From IMG/VR virus record IMGVR_UViG_3300028027_000181, positions 1 through 28,361 of that record: a DNA stretch of 28,361 nt. One strand, written 5' to 3'. Origin of the DNA: a virus. How positions within the stretch are numbered: the first letter of the stretch is position 1; the number at the start of each line of letters is the position of its first letter. Position numbers and translations under genes: made by a program. The notes beneath the pieces are model-generated. The model was not told where the DNA came from. It ran no database searches and worked only from the letters and a program-made list of their open reading frames with translations. Shown piece by piece: positions 4,313 to 26,856 of the stretch.

Positions 4313-4721
4313 TTATTCTAGGGTTTTGACAGTGATTGTGGCCCCTGGCTCGATGCCTTGGGCGTAGAGCTTTCGGGCTGAAATCCGGGTAATTCGGCTG
4401 TCATCGGTGTAAACCCCTGCAATGGCAAGTGCATCGCCCACAGCTCTAACTAGCTTGTCAAGCCGGTCAGAGGTCGGGGGCTACGGTAGGCAACCCCCGA
4501 CTCACAGATTTACCTCTTGGCATATAAAAGTTGACTAGTAGCTCGCAGGGGCCGTCTATAGGCTCCCAGTCGGCTGGCAAGGTCGCAATGACTTCATTGA
4601 CTATGGCTGTACGCCATGCCTTATGTTTTTTGCTGTTGACCTGAACTATGCGGCCTTGCATTATGGCGTGTGAGCCTTGACTGGCTGGGTCACCGGTAAT
4701 GCTAAAGCTTACCTCTGCCAT
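4313..4721 (-). CDS. rusA: RusA-like Holliday junction resolvase, interrupted by a +1 frame change
   Basis: The first frame (4467-4721, 84 codons) has the RusA N-terminus: SITGDPASQGSHAI, NSKKHKAW and NFYMPRGKSVSRGLPT. It stops at TGA 4467-4469 just where the catalytic segment should begin. The +1 frame continues at once with DRLDKLVRAVGDALAIAG then VYTDDSRITRISARK, ending at TAA 4313-4315. It supplies the conserved Asp, Lys and Asp-Asp residues, so the joined product is about 135 residues, normal for RusA. The junction CTC TGA C has the geometry of the prfB +1 site. Alternatively, removing one C from the C5 run at 4476-4480 also restores the frame. RusA dimers cut four-way junctions made during phage recombination and replication. 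Family assignment is firm; the cause of the break is not. Confidence 0.78.
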
Positions 4722-5254: not shown

Positions 5255-5530
5255 CTAATGGTCACCTATGACATGGTTCGGATTGGTGCAGTCACTGTGT
5301 CCACAAGACCTAATGCCAGGCAAAACTGGCTTGCCATCAAAGAGTGGCACAGACAAGGTTTCCTTGTCAAACTCACCCTGCCAGGGGATGCACTTTTCAG
5401 AGCCGTACTTGATGACCAAGGCTCGGTGCATACGACAAGACTGGCACTTGAGGTCTTTCCTCTTACGCTTATGCGTGTTGACCTTCCAAGTTGCTCCACA
5501 TCGGCAACACAAGGCCACATTGTCATCCAC
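5255..5530 (-). CDS. Small zinc-binding, HNH-like protein
   Basis: A 91-residue protein beginning at GTG 5530. Two zinc-ribbon knuckles, CCRCG (8-12) and KCQSCR (about 28-33), come first. The second half has CIPW and then GIRSCGHSDCTNPNHVIGDH. The C-x4-NPxH ending resembles the last part of HNH nucleases, but a full set of catalytic histidines is not evident. It sits 9 nt downstream of the helicase and in the same transcription unit. It could be a degenerate HNH endonuclease or a DNA- or RNA-binding zinc protein. Confidence 0.6.
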   Translation of the reverse strand: MDDNVALCCRCGATWKVNTHKRKRKDLKCQSCRMHRALVIKYGSEKCIPWQGEFDKETLSVPLFDGKPVLPGIRSCGHSDCTNPNHVIGDH

Positions 5531-5539
5531 GCCATAATC

Positions 5540-6772
5540 TTAGCCCTCGACAACTCTGGATAAGTGACCCTCAAACCTGAGTCCTACTTCTCCAAGTCCA
5601 CCCTGTCGGTTCTTTGCAACCTTCATAATCATCCAAGACTTCTGCCACTCAAACTGGTCCTCGGCGATTGACTCGCGGTGCAACAGGATTACAGCATCTG
5701 CATCCTGCTCGATTCCACCTGAGTCTCTTAGGTCAGCAAGGTCTGGTTTAGAATCTTTGCGTTGCTCTGGGCCTCGGTTCAACTGAGCCAAGGCAATAAG
5801 AGGCACATCTAAGTCTCTAGCGAGGTTCTTGAGCCCGATGGAGATGTCGGTAATCATCTCGTATCGCTTTCGGCCCTTTTCTGTGTCCTGAATCAAGCCA
5901 AGGTAGTCAACAACTATTGCTCTAAGTTTGCCGTTGCCCTTGACGCTGTTTGCTAGGGCTCTAATCTGCATCAGATTCTGGCCTGACTTGTCATGGATGG
6001 CAAGCTGGTGTTTAGTCAGTTCCTCTCTTGCCTTTGCAATCTTGGTCCAGTCAATGTCTTTGAGTGTTCCCTTTTCAATGTTGCCGATGTAAACCTCAGC
6101 TTCCATGCTGATGATTCTGTTGTAGAGCTCTGCCTTGCCCATCTCTAGTGAGTGAAAGCTCACCGGTCCTGTCTTGGAAAGCTCCCAGGCAATCTGCAAG
6201 CCAACAATCGTTTTACCGATGCCAGGTCGGGCACCAATGATGTAAAGGGCACCTGGTCGGAATCCTGCAAGAATTTCATTTAGAGATGGCCAGGGGCTCA
6301 GTGGGTAATCTTTTGGCTTGTCAATCTCATCCAGGTAAGGGATAAGTTCCTGGCTAACATAGCTTGGCTTAGTTGCCTGGTTGCGGTCAATTAGGTTGTC
6401 AATCTCTTGCTTGGCTAGATTCATTGCAGCCGGCAAGTCATCGCTCTGAGCCTTTAGGTTAATCATTGTGCCGGCCTGTGCAAGCTTTCGCCTGGTTGAT
6501 TCCTCAACAACCTTTGTGGCGTAGTAGCCGACACTGACAGCAGTTGGAGTAGCTGTCATACAGTCATGTAGGAAGCTTGCGAATCGAGGCAACTTTGCAG
6601 ACAGAGTGACAACATCTAATGGTTGTCTATCTCGCTTGAGTTCGAGCATGGCCTCGTAGATTTTGGCATGGTTTAGGTCGTAAAAGTCAGCCGGTAAGAG
6701 AGTCAGGTCATCAAGTGCTTTGCCGTTGGTAAGCAGCACTGAGCCAATCACTGACATTTCAAAGTGGCTCAC
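5540..6772 (-). CDS. dnaB: Replicative DNA helicase, DnaB family
   Basis: A 410-residue hexameric helicase that would unwind phage DNA at the fork. The N-terminal helical domain (1-130) is followed by the RecA-like core: Walker A GARPGIGKT at 180-188, HSLEM near 207-211, Walker B IVVDY at 286-290, LIALAQLNRG at 325-334, and DLRDSGGIEQDADAVI at 347-362. Start GTG 6772 overlaps the stop of the initiator gene as GTGA, so initiator and helicase are translationally coupled, like lambda O/P or P22 18/12. Length is slightly short of bacterial DnaB (about 450-470), with a reduced N-terminal domain. Confidence 0.95.
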   Translation of the reverse strand: MSHFEMSVIGSVLLTNGKALDDLTLLPADFYDLNHAKIYEAMLELKRDRQPLDVVTLSAKLPRFASFLHDCMTATPTAVSVGYYATKVVEESTRRKLAQAGTMINLKAQSDDLPAAMNLAKQEIDNLIDRNQATKPSYVSQELIPYLDEIDKPKDYPLSPWPSLNEILAGFRPGALYIIGARPGIGKTIVGLQIAWELSKTGPVSFHSLEMGKAELYNRIISMEAEVYIGNIEKGTLKDIDWTKIAKAREELTKHQLAIHDKSGQNLMQIRALANSVKGNGKLRAIVVDYLGLIQDTEKGRKRYEMITDISIGLKNLARDLDVPLIALAQLNRGPEQRKDSKPDLADLRDSGGIEQDADAVILLHRESIAEDQFEWQKSWMIMKVAKNRQGGLGEVGLRFEGHLSRVVEG

Positions 6773-7431
6773 TTGATTCTCCCAAAGATAGGTTTGCTCG
6801 GTGGTTTAGGTTTGTTGCTTTCGACTGACTCGTAAAGTCCCTTGTTGAGCCAAGAGGCTGGGTAGGGGATATAAGTCATCTCAGGTAGCTTGCTTTCCGA
6901 GTAAGCCTTGGTGAGGCCAATCAACTCATCAGCGGTTTTTGTTTTGAGTGCTTTGTTCCAAGCTTTTAGGGCATCAGCTTTAGCTATCTTTTTTGGATAC
7001 AAATTCCAAAATGTTTCAAACTCATCATTGAGGGTTTTCTTTGATGTTTCTTTGATGGTTCTAATGATGTTTTGCGTGCCAACAGGTGTCACCCCTGATT
7101 TACCTGAGCTGTCACCCCTGCTTACCCAGTCTGTCACCCCTGGTGCTGAATCTGTCACCCCTGAGCTAATCGTTATCCAATAGAGGTTGGTCTTGTATTG
7201 GTGATTTGTCGGTGCACTTTGTAGCTCAACTTTTAGCTCACCCAGCTCCATGAGTTCTTGAATGTCTCGCTTTACAGACCTCTCTGAGGCGTTTGCGTAT
7301 CTTGCCAGAGTTGAAATTGAGGGCCACGCACCCTGGTCACCTAGATGGTTTGCAATACCAAGCAAGACAAGCTTGGCTCTACCGGTTGCTCGTGATTTAT
7401 TTAGAACTAGTGAAACTGCTTCAATGCTCAC
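6769..7431 (-). CDS. Helix-turn-helix replication initiator (lambda O-like organisation)
   Basis: A 220-residue protein starting at GTG 7431 (GTGA overlap with the upstream gene). Residues 1-75 form a winged helix-turn-helix (AKLVLLGIANHL, then PSISTLARYANASERSVKRD). Residues about 90-125 are a low-complexity linker with GVTD/GVTP units encoded by the iteron-like repeats. Residues 140-205 (FWNLYPKKIAKADALKAWNK and YIPYPASWLNKGLYE) are a module common to phage replication-organiser proteins. It probably binds the repeats in its own gene and loads the coupled helicase. The domain layout (DNA-binding N-terminus, linker over the origin, helicase-contact C-terminus) parallels lambda O; direct homology to O is not claimed. 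Confidence 0.85.
   Translation of the reverse strand: MSIEAVSLVLNKSRATGRAKLVLLGIANHLGDQGAWPSISTLARYANASERSVKRDIQELMELGELKVELQSAPTNHQYKTNLYWITISSGVTDSAPGVTDWVSRGDSSGKSGVTPVGTQNIIRTIKETSKKTLNDEFETFWNLYPKKIAKADALKAWNKALKTKTADELIGLTKAYSESKLPEMTYIPYPASWLNKGLYESVESNKPKPPSKPIFGRIK
7087..7163 (-). repeat. Four iteron-like direct repeats inside the initiator gene; candidate replication origin
   Basis: The 11-mer TGTCACCCCTG (plus strand) occurs exactly at 7087-7097, 7110-7120, 7132-7142 and 7153-7163, with start spacings of 23, 22 and 21 nt, about two helical turns. Because 22 and 23 are not multiples of three, one copy is read in a different codon phase (as SRGDS rather than GVT). The DNA sequence, not the peptide, is therefore what is conserved. 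An AT-rich stretch follows at about 6985-7075, downstream in the gene, the same side as in the lambda origin. A near match (TGTCACGCCCT) occurs at 7691-7701. Confidence 0.72.
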
Positions 7432-7760: not shown

Positions 7761-8099
7761 TTAAAAGTATTCAATGTCATGCTGTACGCTGCGTGTGTTG
7801 AAATCATTGTCAAGTAGAAACCAGCCATTGCCCATGTAAACAGGTGTGGACTCAGGCTCTTGCCAGCGTTCCAGCTTCCAGCCAAACTTACGCCCTAGCT
7901 CGGCAAACTTGCTGTTTGACTCAAGTAAACCATTAGCCTCTGAGCAAAGCACAATGATGTTGCTTGCTCTGTCCAGGTCTTTACTGCCACCCATGCCACG
8001 ATTCTTGCGGTGCTGTGGGATAAGTGTGTCATCTGTTGTGCCACAGTGTGAGCAACAAACATCCCTTGCCAGGAACTTGTCAAAAGTCTTTTTATTCAT
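7761..8099 (-). CDS. HNH endonuclease-like protein
   Basis: A 112-residue protein from ATG 8099 (a second ATG one codon upstream, 8102, is possible; GGGG lies 5 nt ahead of 8099). Motifs: CCSHC at 15-19 forming a zinc knuckle, then LIPQHRKNRGMGGSKDLD with H30, then ASNIIVLC with N47 and C52. These match the first His, the Asn and the second zinc knuckle of HNH nucleases, although the usual final histidine is replaced in SEANGLL, so catalysis is uncertain. HNH proteins in phages nick DNA in packaging, recombination or homing. Its early-region position favours a recombination, repair or homing role. It overlaps the upstream small gene by 8 nt. Confidence 0.7.
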   Translation of the reverse strand: MNKKTFDKFLARDVCCSHCGTTDDTLIPQHRKNRGMGGSKDLDRASNIIVLCSEANGLLESNSKFAELGRKFGWKLERWQEPESTPVYMGNGWFLLDNDFNTRSVQHDIEYF

Positions 8100-8313
8100 C
8101 ATCACCCCAAGGGTCATACTCTTTTGCAGGAATGTCTAGGCCTGTGCCTTTGTAATCTGCACTGAATCCAATGGTGCTTGTAGTTTCTATGTCACGCAAG
8201 TCTGGTGCAGCTTCCTGGCAGGTGTGATTTCTACGCCAATCCCGAATCAGCTTTATAGGCTCAGGCTCATCTGTTTTGAACTTGGCTCCACATGAGCAGG
8301 TCTCGGCAATCAC
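8092..8313 (-). CDS. Small cysteine-containing hypothetical protein (73 aa)
   Basis: Start GTG 8313, 16 nt after the upstream stop, with only a weak GG-rich site. TCSCGAKF (residues 5-12) and WRRNHTC (26-32) place three cysteines and a histidine in zinc-finger-like spacing. The C-terminal half is acidic and ends YDPWGDDE. Short zinc-knuckle proteins of this style are frequent in actinophage early operons. Function unknown; possible nucleic-acid binding. It overlaps the HNH gene by 8 nt. Confidence 0.65.
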   Translation of the reverse strand: MIAETCSCGAKFKTDEPEPIKLIRDWRRNHTCQEAAPDLRDIETTSTIGFSADYKGTGLDIPAKEYDPWGDDE

Positions 8314-10413: not shown

Positions 10414-10441
10414 ACATTACTCTAATCTGACCCTATGACAA
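10414..10441 (-). promoter_or_regulatory. Early minus-strand promoter (candidate)
   Basis: TTGTCA (10436-10441) and TAATGT (10414-10419), both read on the minus strand, are separated by 16 nt, a good match to sigma-70-type -35/-10 spacing. It would start transcription near 10407, ahead of the exonuclease gene. The -35 lies inside the first codons of the divergent whiB-like gene. Confidence 0.55.
10423..10428 (+). promoter_or_regulatory. -10 element of a leaderless whiB-like promoter (candidate)
   Basis: TAATCT fits the actinobacterial TANNNT -10 and ends 6 nt before the ATG at 10435, which puts transcription start at or next to the A of the start codon. No ribosome binding site precedes the ATG. 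TTGACA at 10411-10416 is too close to serve as its -35; it is 17 nt from TATGAC at 10434-10439, which would put the start inside the gene. Confidence 0.5.
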
Positions 10442-10701
10442 GACAGCTCGAAAGAAAATACATTGAACTGCAACACGCCATAACTGAAAATGGGGGTGTT
10501 CAATGTAGCCAGTTGCCTGAGTGCTTTTTCCCAGAGGATGAGCCAGATGTGTACCTGCGTAAAAAGCTGATTGCGGTAGCCAAGGAAGTCTGCAACGACT
10601 GCCCCGTCAGGCTAAGGTGCTTTGACTATGCCCTATCAGCAGGGATGGTAGGCATTTGGGGTGGCACTACTGCCGAGGAACGCTCGAAGCTGAGGTCTTA
10701 G
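10435..10701 (+). CDS. WhiB-family iron-sulfur transcription regulator
   Basis: An 88-residue protein and the only plus-strand gene in the window. C24, C53, C56 and C62 form the WhiB [4Fe-4S] ligand set (C, then CNDCPVRLRC, i.e. C-x2-C-x5-C), followed by GIWGG at 73-77 and the basic TTAEERSK tail that contacts DNA. C30 (PECFFPED) is an extra cysteine one residue before the FFPE motif. WhiB proteins bind the primary sigma factor and steer host promoters; phage versions such as TM4 WhiBTM4 interfere with host WhiB2. The family occurs only in Actinobacteria and their phages, which fixes the host group. Transcription is probably leaderless, divergent from the early operon. It converges with the 80-residue gene, overlapping 4 nt. 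Confidence 0.93.
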   Translation: MTRQLERKYIELQHAITENGGVQCSQLPECFFPEDEPDVYLRKKLIAVAKEVCNDCPVRLRCFDYALSAGMVGIWGGTTAEERSKLRS

Positions 10702-20389: not shown

Positions 20390-20812
20390 CTAACGCCTAA
20401 AAAGCATACGCTCTTTGATGGCTGTTGAGCTGATGCCTTGAGTGTATGGGATGTAGATTAGGGCTATTTGTCTCTCATCAAGCCAGTCCTGGTCGAACTG
20501 CATCTGAGCGTGGTAGTCACGCCTAGCCCAGTCAGTTCCAATGGCGATGATGTCGGGCCATACTTGCTCGATGGTTGGCTTGCTGTCTGGTCCACCTAGG
20601 TTGGGCACTACCTTGTCAACATAACGACAAGATAACAGCACAGCCTCGCGGTCTGAGTAGCTTAGGACTGGTGGCTTGCCCTTGTATTCCTCAATAAACT
20701 CATCGGTGTTTAGGGATACGACAACAGGACCGAGCTCTGCACACCGTTGCAGGAACTTAGCGTGACCTGCGTGAAAAAGGTCAAAAGTGCCCCCTGTATA
20801 AACTAGCCCCAT
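20390..20812 (-). CDS. Nucleotidyltransferase, TagD/cytidylyltransferase-like
   Basis: A 140-residue enzyme that would form an activated CDP- or NDP-linked precursor from a phosphorylated alcohol or sugar. The nucleotide-binding motif GGTFDLFHAGH (7-17) is complete with the HxGH-type histidines H14 and H17. The C-terminal ISSTAIKER matches the I-S-S-T-x-I-x-x-R signature of TagD and RfaE-C enzymes. RDYHAQ and a conserved GTDWARRDY stretch lie between. It overlaps the GT2 gene by 10 nt, so its product probably feeds the two glycosyltransferases. Glycerol-3-phosphate cytidylyltransferase is the closest match by motif; the substrate is not proven. Confidence 0.87.
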   Translation of the reverse strand: MGLVYTGGTFDLFHAGHAKFLQRCAELGPVVVSLNTDEFIEEYKGKPPVLSYSDREAVLLSCRYVDKVVPNLGGPDSKPTIEQVWPDIIAIGTDWARRDYHAQMQFDQDWLDERQIALIYIPYTQGISSTAIKERMLFRR

Positions 20813-21450
20813 GAGTTTTCACGCCTTATCTTTAGGCTCCAGTTGCCCTCGCTGTAATCGTTGTTGACAACCTTAGAGTCAAACAAAGCGTTATTGTTTC
20901 TGTAGCTCACAGCGTTCTTGTGCTCATAGCCGGACTTTAGCGTTGAGCTGTTTTCATGGTGGACTATTGCCTCTATCCTTCTAACCGGCAACCCAGCGTT
21001 TCTGATTCGGCGTTCATAGTCATTGTCATCAAAGTAGAGGGGGTAAAGTCTCTCATCGTAAAGCCCCACTTCCTCAACTACCTTTTGGCCCAAAACAATG
21101 CAGGACCAGTCAGGCACAATGTGCGGAAAGCTCAAAGCATTTGCATCTGCATCCTCACAGATAATCTCCAAGGCACCCTCAGCAAACCAGGCATCATCAT
21201 TTACCAGTACCCAGTAAGGGGCATAGGGCGTTGACTTTACAATCAGGTTCCAAGCACCGACAAGGCCAAGGCCAAATGGCACTCTAATAAGCCAGAGGTT
21301 TTTTACCTTGTCTGGCTTTGTAGGGTTCCAGGTCTGAGTCCCAGAATTGTCAACAATCACCAGGTGCTCTACCGGGTAGTCAATGCTCTCAAGTAGTCTC
21401 TGGGCTAGGTCAAACCTTTTGAGGGTTGCAAAGCCTAGGACAGGAATCAC
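20803..21450 (-). CDS. Family 2-type glycosyltransferase
   Basis: Start placed at GTG 21450 because it overlaps the upstream stop as GTGA and the fold begins right there (VIPVLGFATLKRFDLAQRLL); ATG 21492 would add 14 residues within the previous gene. GT-A features: HLVIVDNSGTQTW, the acidic metal motif WVLVNDDAWF, the insertion FPHIVPDWSCIVLGQ, and YPLYFDDNDYERRIRNAGLP with the ED-like acidic catalytic region. About 215 residues, no membrane anchor. It probably transfers a sugar to a virion protein or a glycan precursor with the neighbouring GT4 and nucleotidyltransferase. Confidence 0.85.
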   Translation of the reverse strand: MIPVLGFATLKRFDLAQRLLESIDYPVEHLVIVDNSGTQTWNPTKPDKVKNLWLIRVPFGLGLVGAWNLIVKSTPYAPYWVLVNDDAWFAEGALEIICEDADANALSFPHIVPDWSCIVLGQKVVEEVGLYDERLYPLYFDDNDYERRIRNAGLPVRRIEAIVHHENSSTLKSGYEHKNAVSYRNNNALFDSKVVNNDYSEGNWSLKIRRENSWG

Positions 21451-22628
21451 TTGAGCAGTTTCTTTAGTACCGGCATCCAGTTTTCTTGCCAAACCTTTTC
21501 ATGGTCAAAGGCTTTAGCAAACTCAACAGCCTTAGCAGACTTGTTTTTGCCCTTGGCGTAAGCCTGTTCTAAAGCCTCTACTATCTCTGGTACAGAAGGG
21601 ATGTTCCAGAATGAGTGCTGTGCTGGGTCATAAAGGGGCTGGCCAGATACTGCCCAACCATCTCCAACTAGCTCAGGTGAGGCAGCAAACTTGCTCACAA
21701 TTACTGGCACACCACAGGCCTGAGCCTCGATTGTCGGAATACCAAACCCTTCGCCATAGCTGGTTGCAAGCATGACATCCCAGCTTGAGTAGATTCCAGC
21801 CAAGGTAGATTGCGGCATCCCATAGCGGTAAGCCAGTGGGTCTGGGAAAGTCATGTTATCTACTGGGATACCTAGCAACTGACCAAGAGCCATTAGGTTC
21901 CAGCCATGAGGTGAGCTTGGGTCTGCATGAATGTAAAGCATTGCATCTGGGTGCTTACGAGCAAACATTGCAAAAGCCATCATGTTCTCTGAGTAAGCCT
22001 TGCGGTGCAAGATGCCCGATGACTTGTTAGCAGCGTTCATGCCGACTACAAAGCGGCCATCCTCAAAGCCCATGTATTCATCAACTGCCAGGCCGTCAAT
22101 CTTGTCTGTCTGCTTGAATACCTTGGTGTCAATGCTGTGGGGGATGTAATGGCCCTCAACACCTGCCTTGTTTATCTGCTCTAGGCCAAACTTGCTCATG
22201 GCAAGAGGCGTGACATTTTCTTTTTGTAGCCATTTCAATACTGCTGGTGGAATTGGGTTGTGGTCAATCGGTGTCCAGCTTGCAATCGGGATTGTGTCAA
22301 AGCCCTTGGAGTTTAGAACCCAGACGTCGTAAAGAGTGATTAGCAGGTCTGGTTGGTCAGGGTTGAGTGCTTTCCAGTGCTTGTGGTGAGCTGGTGTGAC
22401 ATCGTTTGAGTACGACTCAGAGCCTCTGGCATAAATTGGAATCTCGCCATACTCGGTGTGATAAATGGTGTTGATGCCCTCATGCCCATAGTTAGACAGA
22501 GCTGCGACATTGGCACCATCACGCTTTAGCAGTTTGACCAAGGCTTCTGTGGCTTGGCCGTATCCTGTTGGCTGTCCTGGTGAGTTGCTAAAGACAGATA
22601 CAGTGCCTTTTAGTTTTTTCTTGCTCAT
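21447..22628 (-). CDS. Family 4-type glycosyltransferase
   Basis: A 393-residue retaining glycosyltransferase with GT-B fold; ATG 22628 with GAGAGAAAGAA upstream. The N-terminal half shows SNSPGQPTGYGQATEALVKL (the G-x-G-Y-G loop) and PIASWTPIDHNPIPP. The C-terminal donor site shows RFVVGMNAANKSSG and TSYGEGFGIPTIEAQACGVP, including the E-x7-E motif of GT4. It follows the terminator after the capsid gene and begins a three-gene glycosylation operon. Donor and acceptor unknown; capsid or tail glycosylation is the likely purpose, as described in some mycobacteriophages. Confidence 0.9.
   Translation of the reverse strand: MSKKKLKGTVSVFSNSPGQPTGYGQATEALVKLLKRDGANVAALSNYGHEGINTIYHTEYGEIPIYARGSESYSNDVTPAHHKHWKALNPDQPDLLITLYDVWVLNSKGFDTIPIASWTPIDHNPIPPAVLKWLQKENVTPLAMSKFGLEQINKAGVEGHYIPHSIDTKVFKQTDKIDGLAVDEYMGFEDGRFVVGMNAANKSSGILHRKAYSENMMAFAMFARKHPDAMLYIHADPSSPHGWNLMALGQLLGIPVDNMTFPDPLAYRYGMPQSTLAGIYSSWDVMLATSYGEGFGIPTIEAQACGVPVIVSKFAASPELVGDGWAVSGQPLYDPAQHSFWNIPSVPEIVEALEQAYAKGKNKSAKAVEFAKAFDHEKVWQENWMPVLKKLLK

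Positions 22629-26031: not shown

Positions 26032-26032
<1 letters not shown>
25766..26032 (-). CDS. Small beta-rich head-module protein (88 aa)
   Basis: ATG 26032 overlaps the collagen-like gene stop as TAATG. Strand-rich sequence LANVRTLVVPASVGVQHVCI, HNHEHNQNHEIFVGGPDVTL and GTVQLLPMDELYAIAN ends in LRILVVK. The His/Asn cluster HNHEHNQNHE is distinctive and may bind metal or form a trimer axis. Such small proteins often act as decoration or fibre-base subunits. The place between the collagen-like fibre and protease suggests a virion role. No named family. Confidence 0.7.

Positions 26033-26852
<820 letters not shown>

Positions 26853-26856
<4 letters not shown>

Follow-up and report, generated by a model that had tools for sequence, protein, structure and literature searches.

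A candidate iteron origin of replication within the initiator gene of a phage with an HTH_36 winged-helix initiator

Why an 11-nucleotide word should recur four times, letter for letter, in the middle of a phage replication initiator gene is the question that this locus raises. The word, CAGGGGTGACA in gene sense and TGTCACCCCTG on the plus strand, occurs exactly four times in the window, that is, the whole 28,361-base stretch of viral DNA analysed here, and no further exact copy is present. Few actinophage origins seem to have been mapped, and here a candidate origin, its word and the predicted binding domain are placed to the base (Table 1). From sequence comparisons we consider it highly probable that the winged-helix N-terminal domain of the initiator binds the four 11-mers as iterons within its own gene, and that these and the AT-rich DNA beside them constitute the replication origin of the phage.

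Table 1. Features of the candidate origin region, in window coordinates.
Feature	Position	Strand	Basis or content
Replication initiator gene, 220 aa, GTG start	6769..7431	-	PF13730, PHROG matches, AlphaFold2 model
N-terminal winged-helix DNA-binding domain, residues 1-88	7168..7431	-	AlphaFold2, Pfam HTH_36
Iteron 1 (first in gene sense)	7153..7163	-	CAGGGGTGACA
Iteron 2	7132..7142	-	CAGGGGTGACA
Iteron 3	7110..7120	-	CAGGGGTGACA, frame differs: RGD encoded instead of GVT
Iteron 4	7087..7097	-	CAGGGGTGACA
Disordered linker, residues 91-132	7036..7161	-	AlphaFold2 pLDDT <50
Most AT-rich stretch beside the array, candidate DNA-unwinding element	6979..7038	-	72% A+T
Helical C-terminal FWxxYPxK domain, residues 131-202	6826..7041	-	AlphaFold2 helices 131-202
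DnaB-type replicative helicase, 410 aa	5540..6772	-	PF03796 E 9.8e-73; PF00772 E 1.1e-15; phrog_19 E 1.9e-87

The array, its gene and its surroundings

An earlier note on this DNA had described four exact 11-mers at 21-23-nt spacing in the linker region of a helix-turn-helix initiator, one of them in another reading phase. This description proved accurate: the array spans 7087-7163 with start-to-start distances of 23, 22 and 21 nt, and three copies are read as (S/P)GVT while the third in gene order is read as SRGD from identical DNA. When the initiator gene was shuffled among synonymous codons, which preserves both its protein and its codon usage, the 11-mer was absent from 18,878 of 20,000 shuffles, present once in 1,103 and twice in 19; three or four copies never arose. 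An iteron caller that looks for 10-mers with one mismatch at a spacing of 17-27, and that is conservative in that the real lambda ori scores only 20, fires at the initiator array alone (score 40) when tiled across the whole window. In about 598 random control segments from related loci, no genuine segment scored 30. Three segments scored at least 27: L147 and L150, which are the initiator in duplicate loci (the contigs of L063 and L065) and were removed, and L153, with a score of 27.

The protein encoded by this gene comprises a winged-helix HTH_36 DNA-binding domain, a disordered linker and a helical C-terminal domain. Pfam identifies HTH_36 (PF13730) at residues 17-64 (E 2.8e-9) and no other domain above the cutoff, and among PHROG profiles the protein matches phrog_270 (E 2e-32) and phrog_8540, 'replication initiation O-like' (E 1.8e-22). 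Having both an N-terminal HTH_36 winged helix and an initiator profile match, it belongs to the HTH_36 phage initiators. A sequence search of solved structures returned no match, and a fold search of the PDB returned generic winged helices only, all with E > 0.05 (e.g. 4pql and 5kbj). In the AlphaFold2 model, built on a 38-sequence alignment, residues 1-88 adopt an H-H-H-H-E-E fold with a pLDDT of mostly about 80-91, dipping to 64 at residues 71-80, and the recognition helix corresponds to approximately residues 49-63. The DNA that encodes the linker carries the repeats and the beginning of the AT-rich region, residues 90-115 being encoded by the iterons. Because the linker is predicted to be disordered, its coding DNA would be free to hold binding sites; judging from the model, the iterons sit where the protein is unconstrained.

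The other two elements of the earlier description, AT-rich DNA after the repeats and coupling of the repeat-bearing initiator to a DnaB helicase, are likewise present. By composition, the 100 nt directly past the array in gene sense (6987-7086) are 66% A+T, and across the record only 0.07% of 60-nt windows reach the 72% A+T of the candidate unwinding element. With respect to the array, the AT-rich DNA is on the side where lambda ori, in gene O, also has its AT-rich region, and AT-rich DNA follows the array in most lineages, including high-GC phages when measured relative to their own genes, L181 being an exception. The start of dnaB and the end of the initiator gene overlap by 4 bp. An inflection of the GC skew near position 7100, suggested at the time as a check, did not appear: the skew of the window has no switch near 7.1 kb and its minimum is at 14.1 kb, but skew is uninformative in a fragment whose genes lie almost all on the same strand.

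In-gene tandem repeats of constant sequence and helical spacing, selection at the DNA level and adjacent AT-rich DNA, as judged by composition, characterise an embedded iteron origin, and all of these are found here. We infer that binding, melting, helicase loading and initiation occur at the array of the window, along the following lines. Several initiator molecules would bind the iterons, which should lie on one face of the DNA because they are about two helical turns apart. The resulting nucleoprotein complex would distort or unwind the neighbouring AT-rich stretch, the C-terminal FWxxYPxK domain, the putative helicase-recruiting part, would bring in the DnaB helicase that the phage expresses along with it, and the replisome would be completed by enzymes of the host.

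Plasmid iteron arrays often serve control roles. It is thus conceivable, albeit improbable, that the repeats bind the initiator but function chiefly in lowering expression of the initiator-dnaB operon, as an operator or handcuffing site, with the origin residing elsewhere. However, the array is located about 270 nt into the initiator gene, rather than at a promoter, AT-rich DNA comes after it and the helicase gene adjoins. Moreover, the iteron caller detected no further array anywhere in the 28 kb, and the same layout is an origin in pSK41 (PMC5703833).

The host is probably actinobacterial, since the window encodes a WhiB-family transcription factor, the nearest named relatives are Arthrobacter phages and the genome matches are mostly actinobacterial. 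The WhiB-family gene (10435-10701, plus strand), typical of actinobacteriophages, is apparently among the few plus-strand genes. On the minus strand, a RusA-like resolvase ORF (4467-4721) encodes 84 aa as opposed to 138 aa in its relative in L065, and may be truncated or contain a sequencing error. Two small Cys/His-rich, HNH-like ORFs (5255-5530 and 7761-8117, minus strand) flank the initiator-dnaB pair; the latter has no Pfam match, and similar small ORFs also occur near the initiator in relatives. The apparent structural region holds cytidylyltransferase-like and group-1 glycosyltransferase genes (20390-22628) and a gene for a collagen-like triple-helix repeat protein of 274 aa (26032-26856), all on the minus strand.

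The repeat word in relatives

Repeat number and sequence were compared in related genomes, as the earlier note had proposed, and dozens of relatives have the identical word. In 79 of 80 IMG/VR relatives it is at most one substitution away from that of the window, and the copies number 3, 4 or 5, always in whole units; the 80th, L070, carries three copies of CAGGGGGTTCA at the same place instead. None of the relatives examined has lost the 11-mer while retaining the peptide, a pattern that the earlier note had named as one that would speak against its reading. The opposite pattern was found, the DNA word being retained while reading frame and peptide change.

Changes of the word throughout an array were found together with substitutions in the recognition helix. 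L063 carries CAGGGGTGTCA at all four sites and L070 its variant at all three, both with R51S. L148 carries CAGGGGGGACA at all four sites along with K54R and Q58R, while its relatives L259-L265 retain CAGGGGTGACA. In the L058/L131 group, CAGAGGTGACA occupies three or four of five sites, with E50P in the L058 group. The word is unchanged with K54Q and E50V when neither E50P nor R51S is present (L268, L275 and L078), and L241 has two words in two copies each, with residues 50, 51 and 54 unchanged. From this co-variation it can be predicted, though on few independent events and short of proof, that the N-terminal domain reads the word. Such natural pairs of initiator and site could serve to decipher a recognition code of winged helices.

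The word also travels with the domain. In L061-L080 the first ~128 residues, including the iterons, are up to 83% identical to those of the window, while the C-terminal domain is different in most, and the exchange point lies directly downstream of the array. A small helicase-loader-like gene follows the DnaT-like class of C-terminal domains in 13 of 14 cases, dnaB follows the FWxxYPxK class in 48, and neither gene lies within 2.5 kb in 28 more members of the FWxxYPxK class, mostly from more distant groups. Such an exchange of C-terminal domain and partner gene behind the array is expected if domain and array recognise the origin and the C-terminal domain recruits the helicase. Within L061-L080, domains have thus been exchanged naturally right after the candidate origin, for example at L065:5001-5991; in L064 the new domain matches DnaT weakly and below the cutoff. 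Neither Pfam nor PHROG gives a match for the loader-like gene found in this class. A homologue in Arthrobacter phage AbbyDaisy carries the annotation 'helicase loader', and a loader role is only a lead.

These observations bear on the possibility that the repeats bind another protein, such as a host DnaA-like factor, a partition protein, a methyltransferase or a nuclease, and reside in the initiator gene by chance. We regard this as very unlikely, since changes in the word accompany changes in the HTH_36 recognition helix, since the word remains with that domain where the other parts of the gene have been exchanged, and since it varies between lineages, which would be unexpected for a conserved host factor.

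The conclusion of the earlier note that selection is on DNA rather than on peptide is supported by the copies in mixed frames and by the behaviour of synonymous sites. Among 41 distinct close-family sequences, picked by homology and not by having repeats (nucleotide difference 16.5% in the median, 23.5% at most), none of the 11 fourfold-degenerate sites inside the iterons is variable, compared with 27 of 29 outside (Fisher p 3e-8), and variation affects 1 of 44 iteron columns versus 54% of the remaining linker columns. There is next to no chance that the repeats merely reflect a repetitive linker peptide of GVT units without a function of the DNA: three copies do give the same GVT peptide, but the remaining one gives RGD from the same DNA, the repeats of L085 and L086 rotate through all three frames at exactly 22 nt, and synonymous shuffles never rebuild the array, so that a peptide-only explanation is excluded by the change of frames together with the conserved fourfold sites.

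Known origins within initiator genes

The principle of an origin inside the initiator gene is already known from lambda O, SPP1 gene 38, RepA_N plasmids and the HTH_36 plasmid pPR9. The lambda ori within gene O has four annotated iterons and an AT-rich region, and the locus in the window is laid out in the same manner: four direct repeats at 20-24 nt lie mid-gene, between an N-terminal DNA-binding and a C-terminal partner-binding part, and are followed by AT-rich DNA. However, the lambda iterons are 18 bp long and have dyad symmetry, whereas the 11-mer of the window is not palindromic and lacks dyad symmetry. Furthermore, lambda O is followed by the loader gene P and host DnaB is used, whereas the initiator of the window is followed by the phage's own dnaB. 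An initiator gene directly before a DnaB-type helicase gene is also found in the P22-type module (L327 and L328), from which the window differs in having HTH_36 rather than Phage_rep_O as DNA-binding domain. The lambda ori/O architecture claimed in the earlier note thus holds for the layout, the AT-rich flank, the helicase coupling and the comparative evidence, while the combination of initiator and phage DnaB is more P22-like than lambda O/P. A lambda/P22-like iteron origin inside the initiator gene appears to be the best reading.

To call the initiator seemingly unrelated to that of lambda, as was done before, appears too strong. It is true that Phage_rep_O (PF04492), which lambda O itself matches at 5.7e-36, gives no match in the window protein, and that hhalign finds a weak profile-profile similarity between the two proteins (probability 27%, E 7e-4, residues 16-72). 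Yet phrog_678 matches the window protein and lambda O over overlapping parts, and phrog_391 matches the N-terminal part of the former and the C-terminal part of the latter. These bridging profiles and the winged-helix fold suggest that a remote homology is possible. By analogy, the initiator would work like lambda O from outside that Pfam family.

In phage SPP1, oriL inside gene 38 consists of direct repeats and an AT-rich unwinding element and is bound by gp38 (PMC6316719). The window shares with it the direct repeats and AT-rich DNA in the initiator gene, but SPP1 possesses another origin as well as gp39, a separate loader, while the window has no second array. In the pSK41 RepA_N origin, Rep boxes lie in coding DNA for the dispensable linker of the rep gene, between a winged-helix N-terminal domain and a DnaG-binding C-terminal domain (PMC5703833). 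The closest experimental precedent is plasmid pPR9, whose N-terminal domain is pfam13730 (HTH_36), resembles a phage replication protein and was swapped, along with the origin, in one piece of ~500 bp; a pPR9 mini-replicon is functional (PMC5703833). Repeats in linker coding DNA and a winged-helix N-terminal domain are common to these plasmids and the window, and HTH_36 is common to pPR9 and the window; unlike them, the window is not a plasmid context and its protein has no match to RepA_N (PF06970). In the mycobacteriophage RepA prophage replicons (Miko, Rachaly and Jeeves), the initiator also has an N-terminal HTH, and an origin either within repA or upstream of it was suspected by the authors (PMC7157519). 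No repeated motifs were found in the regions examined in that 2020 study (PMC7157519), whereas the initiator gene of the window contains an explicit array.

Breadth among HTH_36 initiators

How far the arrangement extends was assessed in 42 clusters of HTH_36-type initiators, defined at 75% identity over the N-terminal part and sampled non-randomly, with relatives of the window from several searches as seeds. An array of at least three copies lies just after the wing, at the same place, in 31 of them, and in 29 of these 31 arrays the copies occupy at least two reading frames. To the iteron caller, the other 11 lack a three-copy array, ten having a two-copy match only and one nothing. The repeat word differs by lineage: it is GGGGTGAAC in Arthrobacter phages Galaxy and Renna12, at exactly 22 nt and rotating through all three frames, and there are four copies each of AACGGGGTGCAA in Pseudomonas phage vB_Pae_CF183a, of ACGGGGGGAA in Nocardioides pini and of CACGTCACCC in Curtobacterium phage Root. 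Among relatives that share the C-terminal domain without HTH_36, by contrast, arrays (score of at least 24) occur in 5 of 26 clusters. Since arrays are mostly missing when only the C-terminal domain is shared, it is the HTH_36 domain that the repeats accompany.

It is appealing to propose, and we lean towards this view, that the HTH_36 initiators of phages constitute a single broad system spanning actinobacterial, proteobacterial and other phages, in which the origin would lie in the linker coding DNA, domain and iterons would move as a cassette between differing C-terminal domains that recruit the helicase, and the word would change with recognition-helix residues 50, 51, 54 and 58. If true, the origins of many phages for which none has been established could be read directly from their sequence, and the pattern seen in 31 of the 42 lineages would provide a testable rule for locating them. 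Perhaps such loci could also furnish small self-contained replicons for actinobacterial laboratory vectors. In the literature covered by our searches, embedded iteron origins do not seem to have been described at this breadth for HTH_36 and actinophage initiators.

The rule was also put to Arthrobacter phages Persistence and AbbyDaisy, which have a loader-like gene similar to the one in L065. The N-terminus of their initiators is a different one, and the linker shows only a short-period run around GGGGAACA; since their linkers lack an array, the rule does not reach that N-terminus.

Arrays, mostly with a characteristic spacing of 19 + 23/24 nt, were found in L152-L159 and L175, which are actinobacterial genome contigs, mostly of Microbacteriaceae, together with the 15-kb Curtobacterium phage Root; some of them carry the word in opposite orientation (GGGGTGTCGC or CACGTCACCC). 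In L318 (~339-563), AAAACAACCAC occurs four times, at 22-23 nt and in two frames, within an initiator-like ORF that lacks the HTH_36 N-terminus; here an origin within an initiator gene may have arisen independently.
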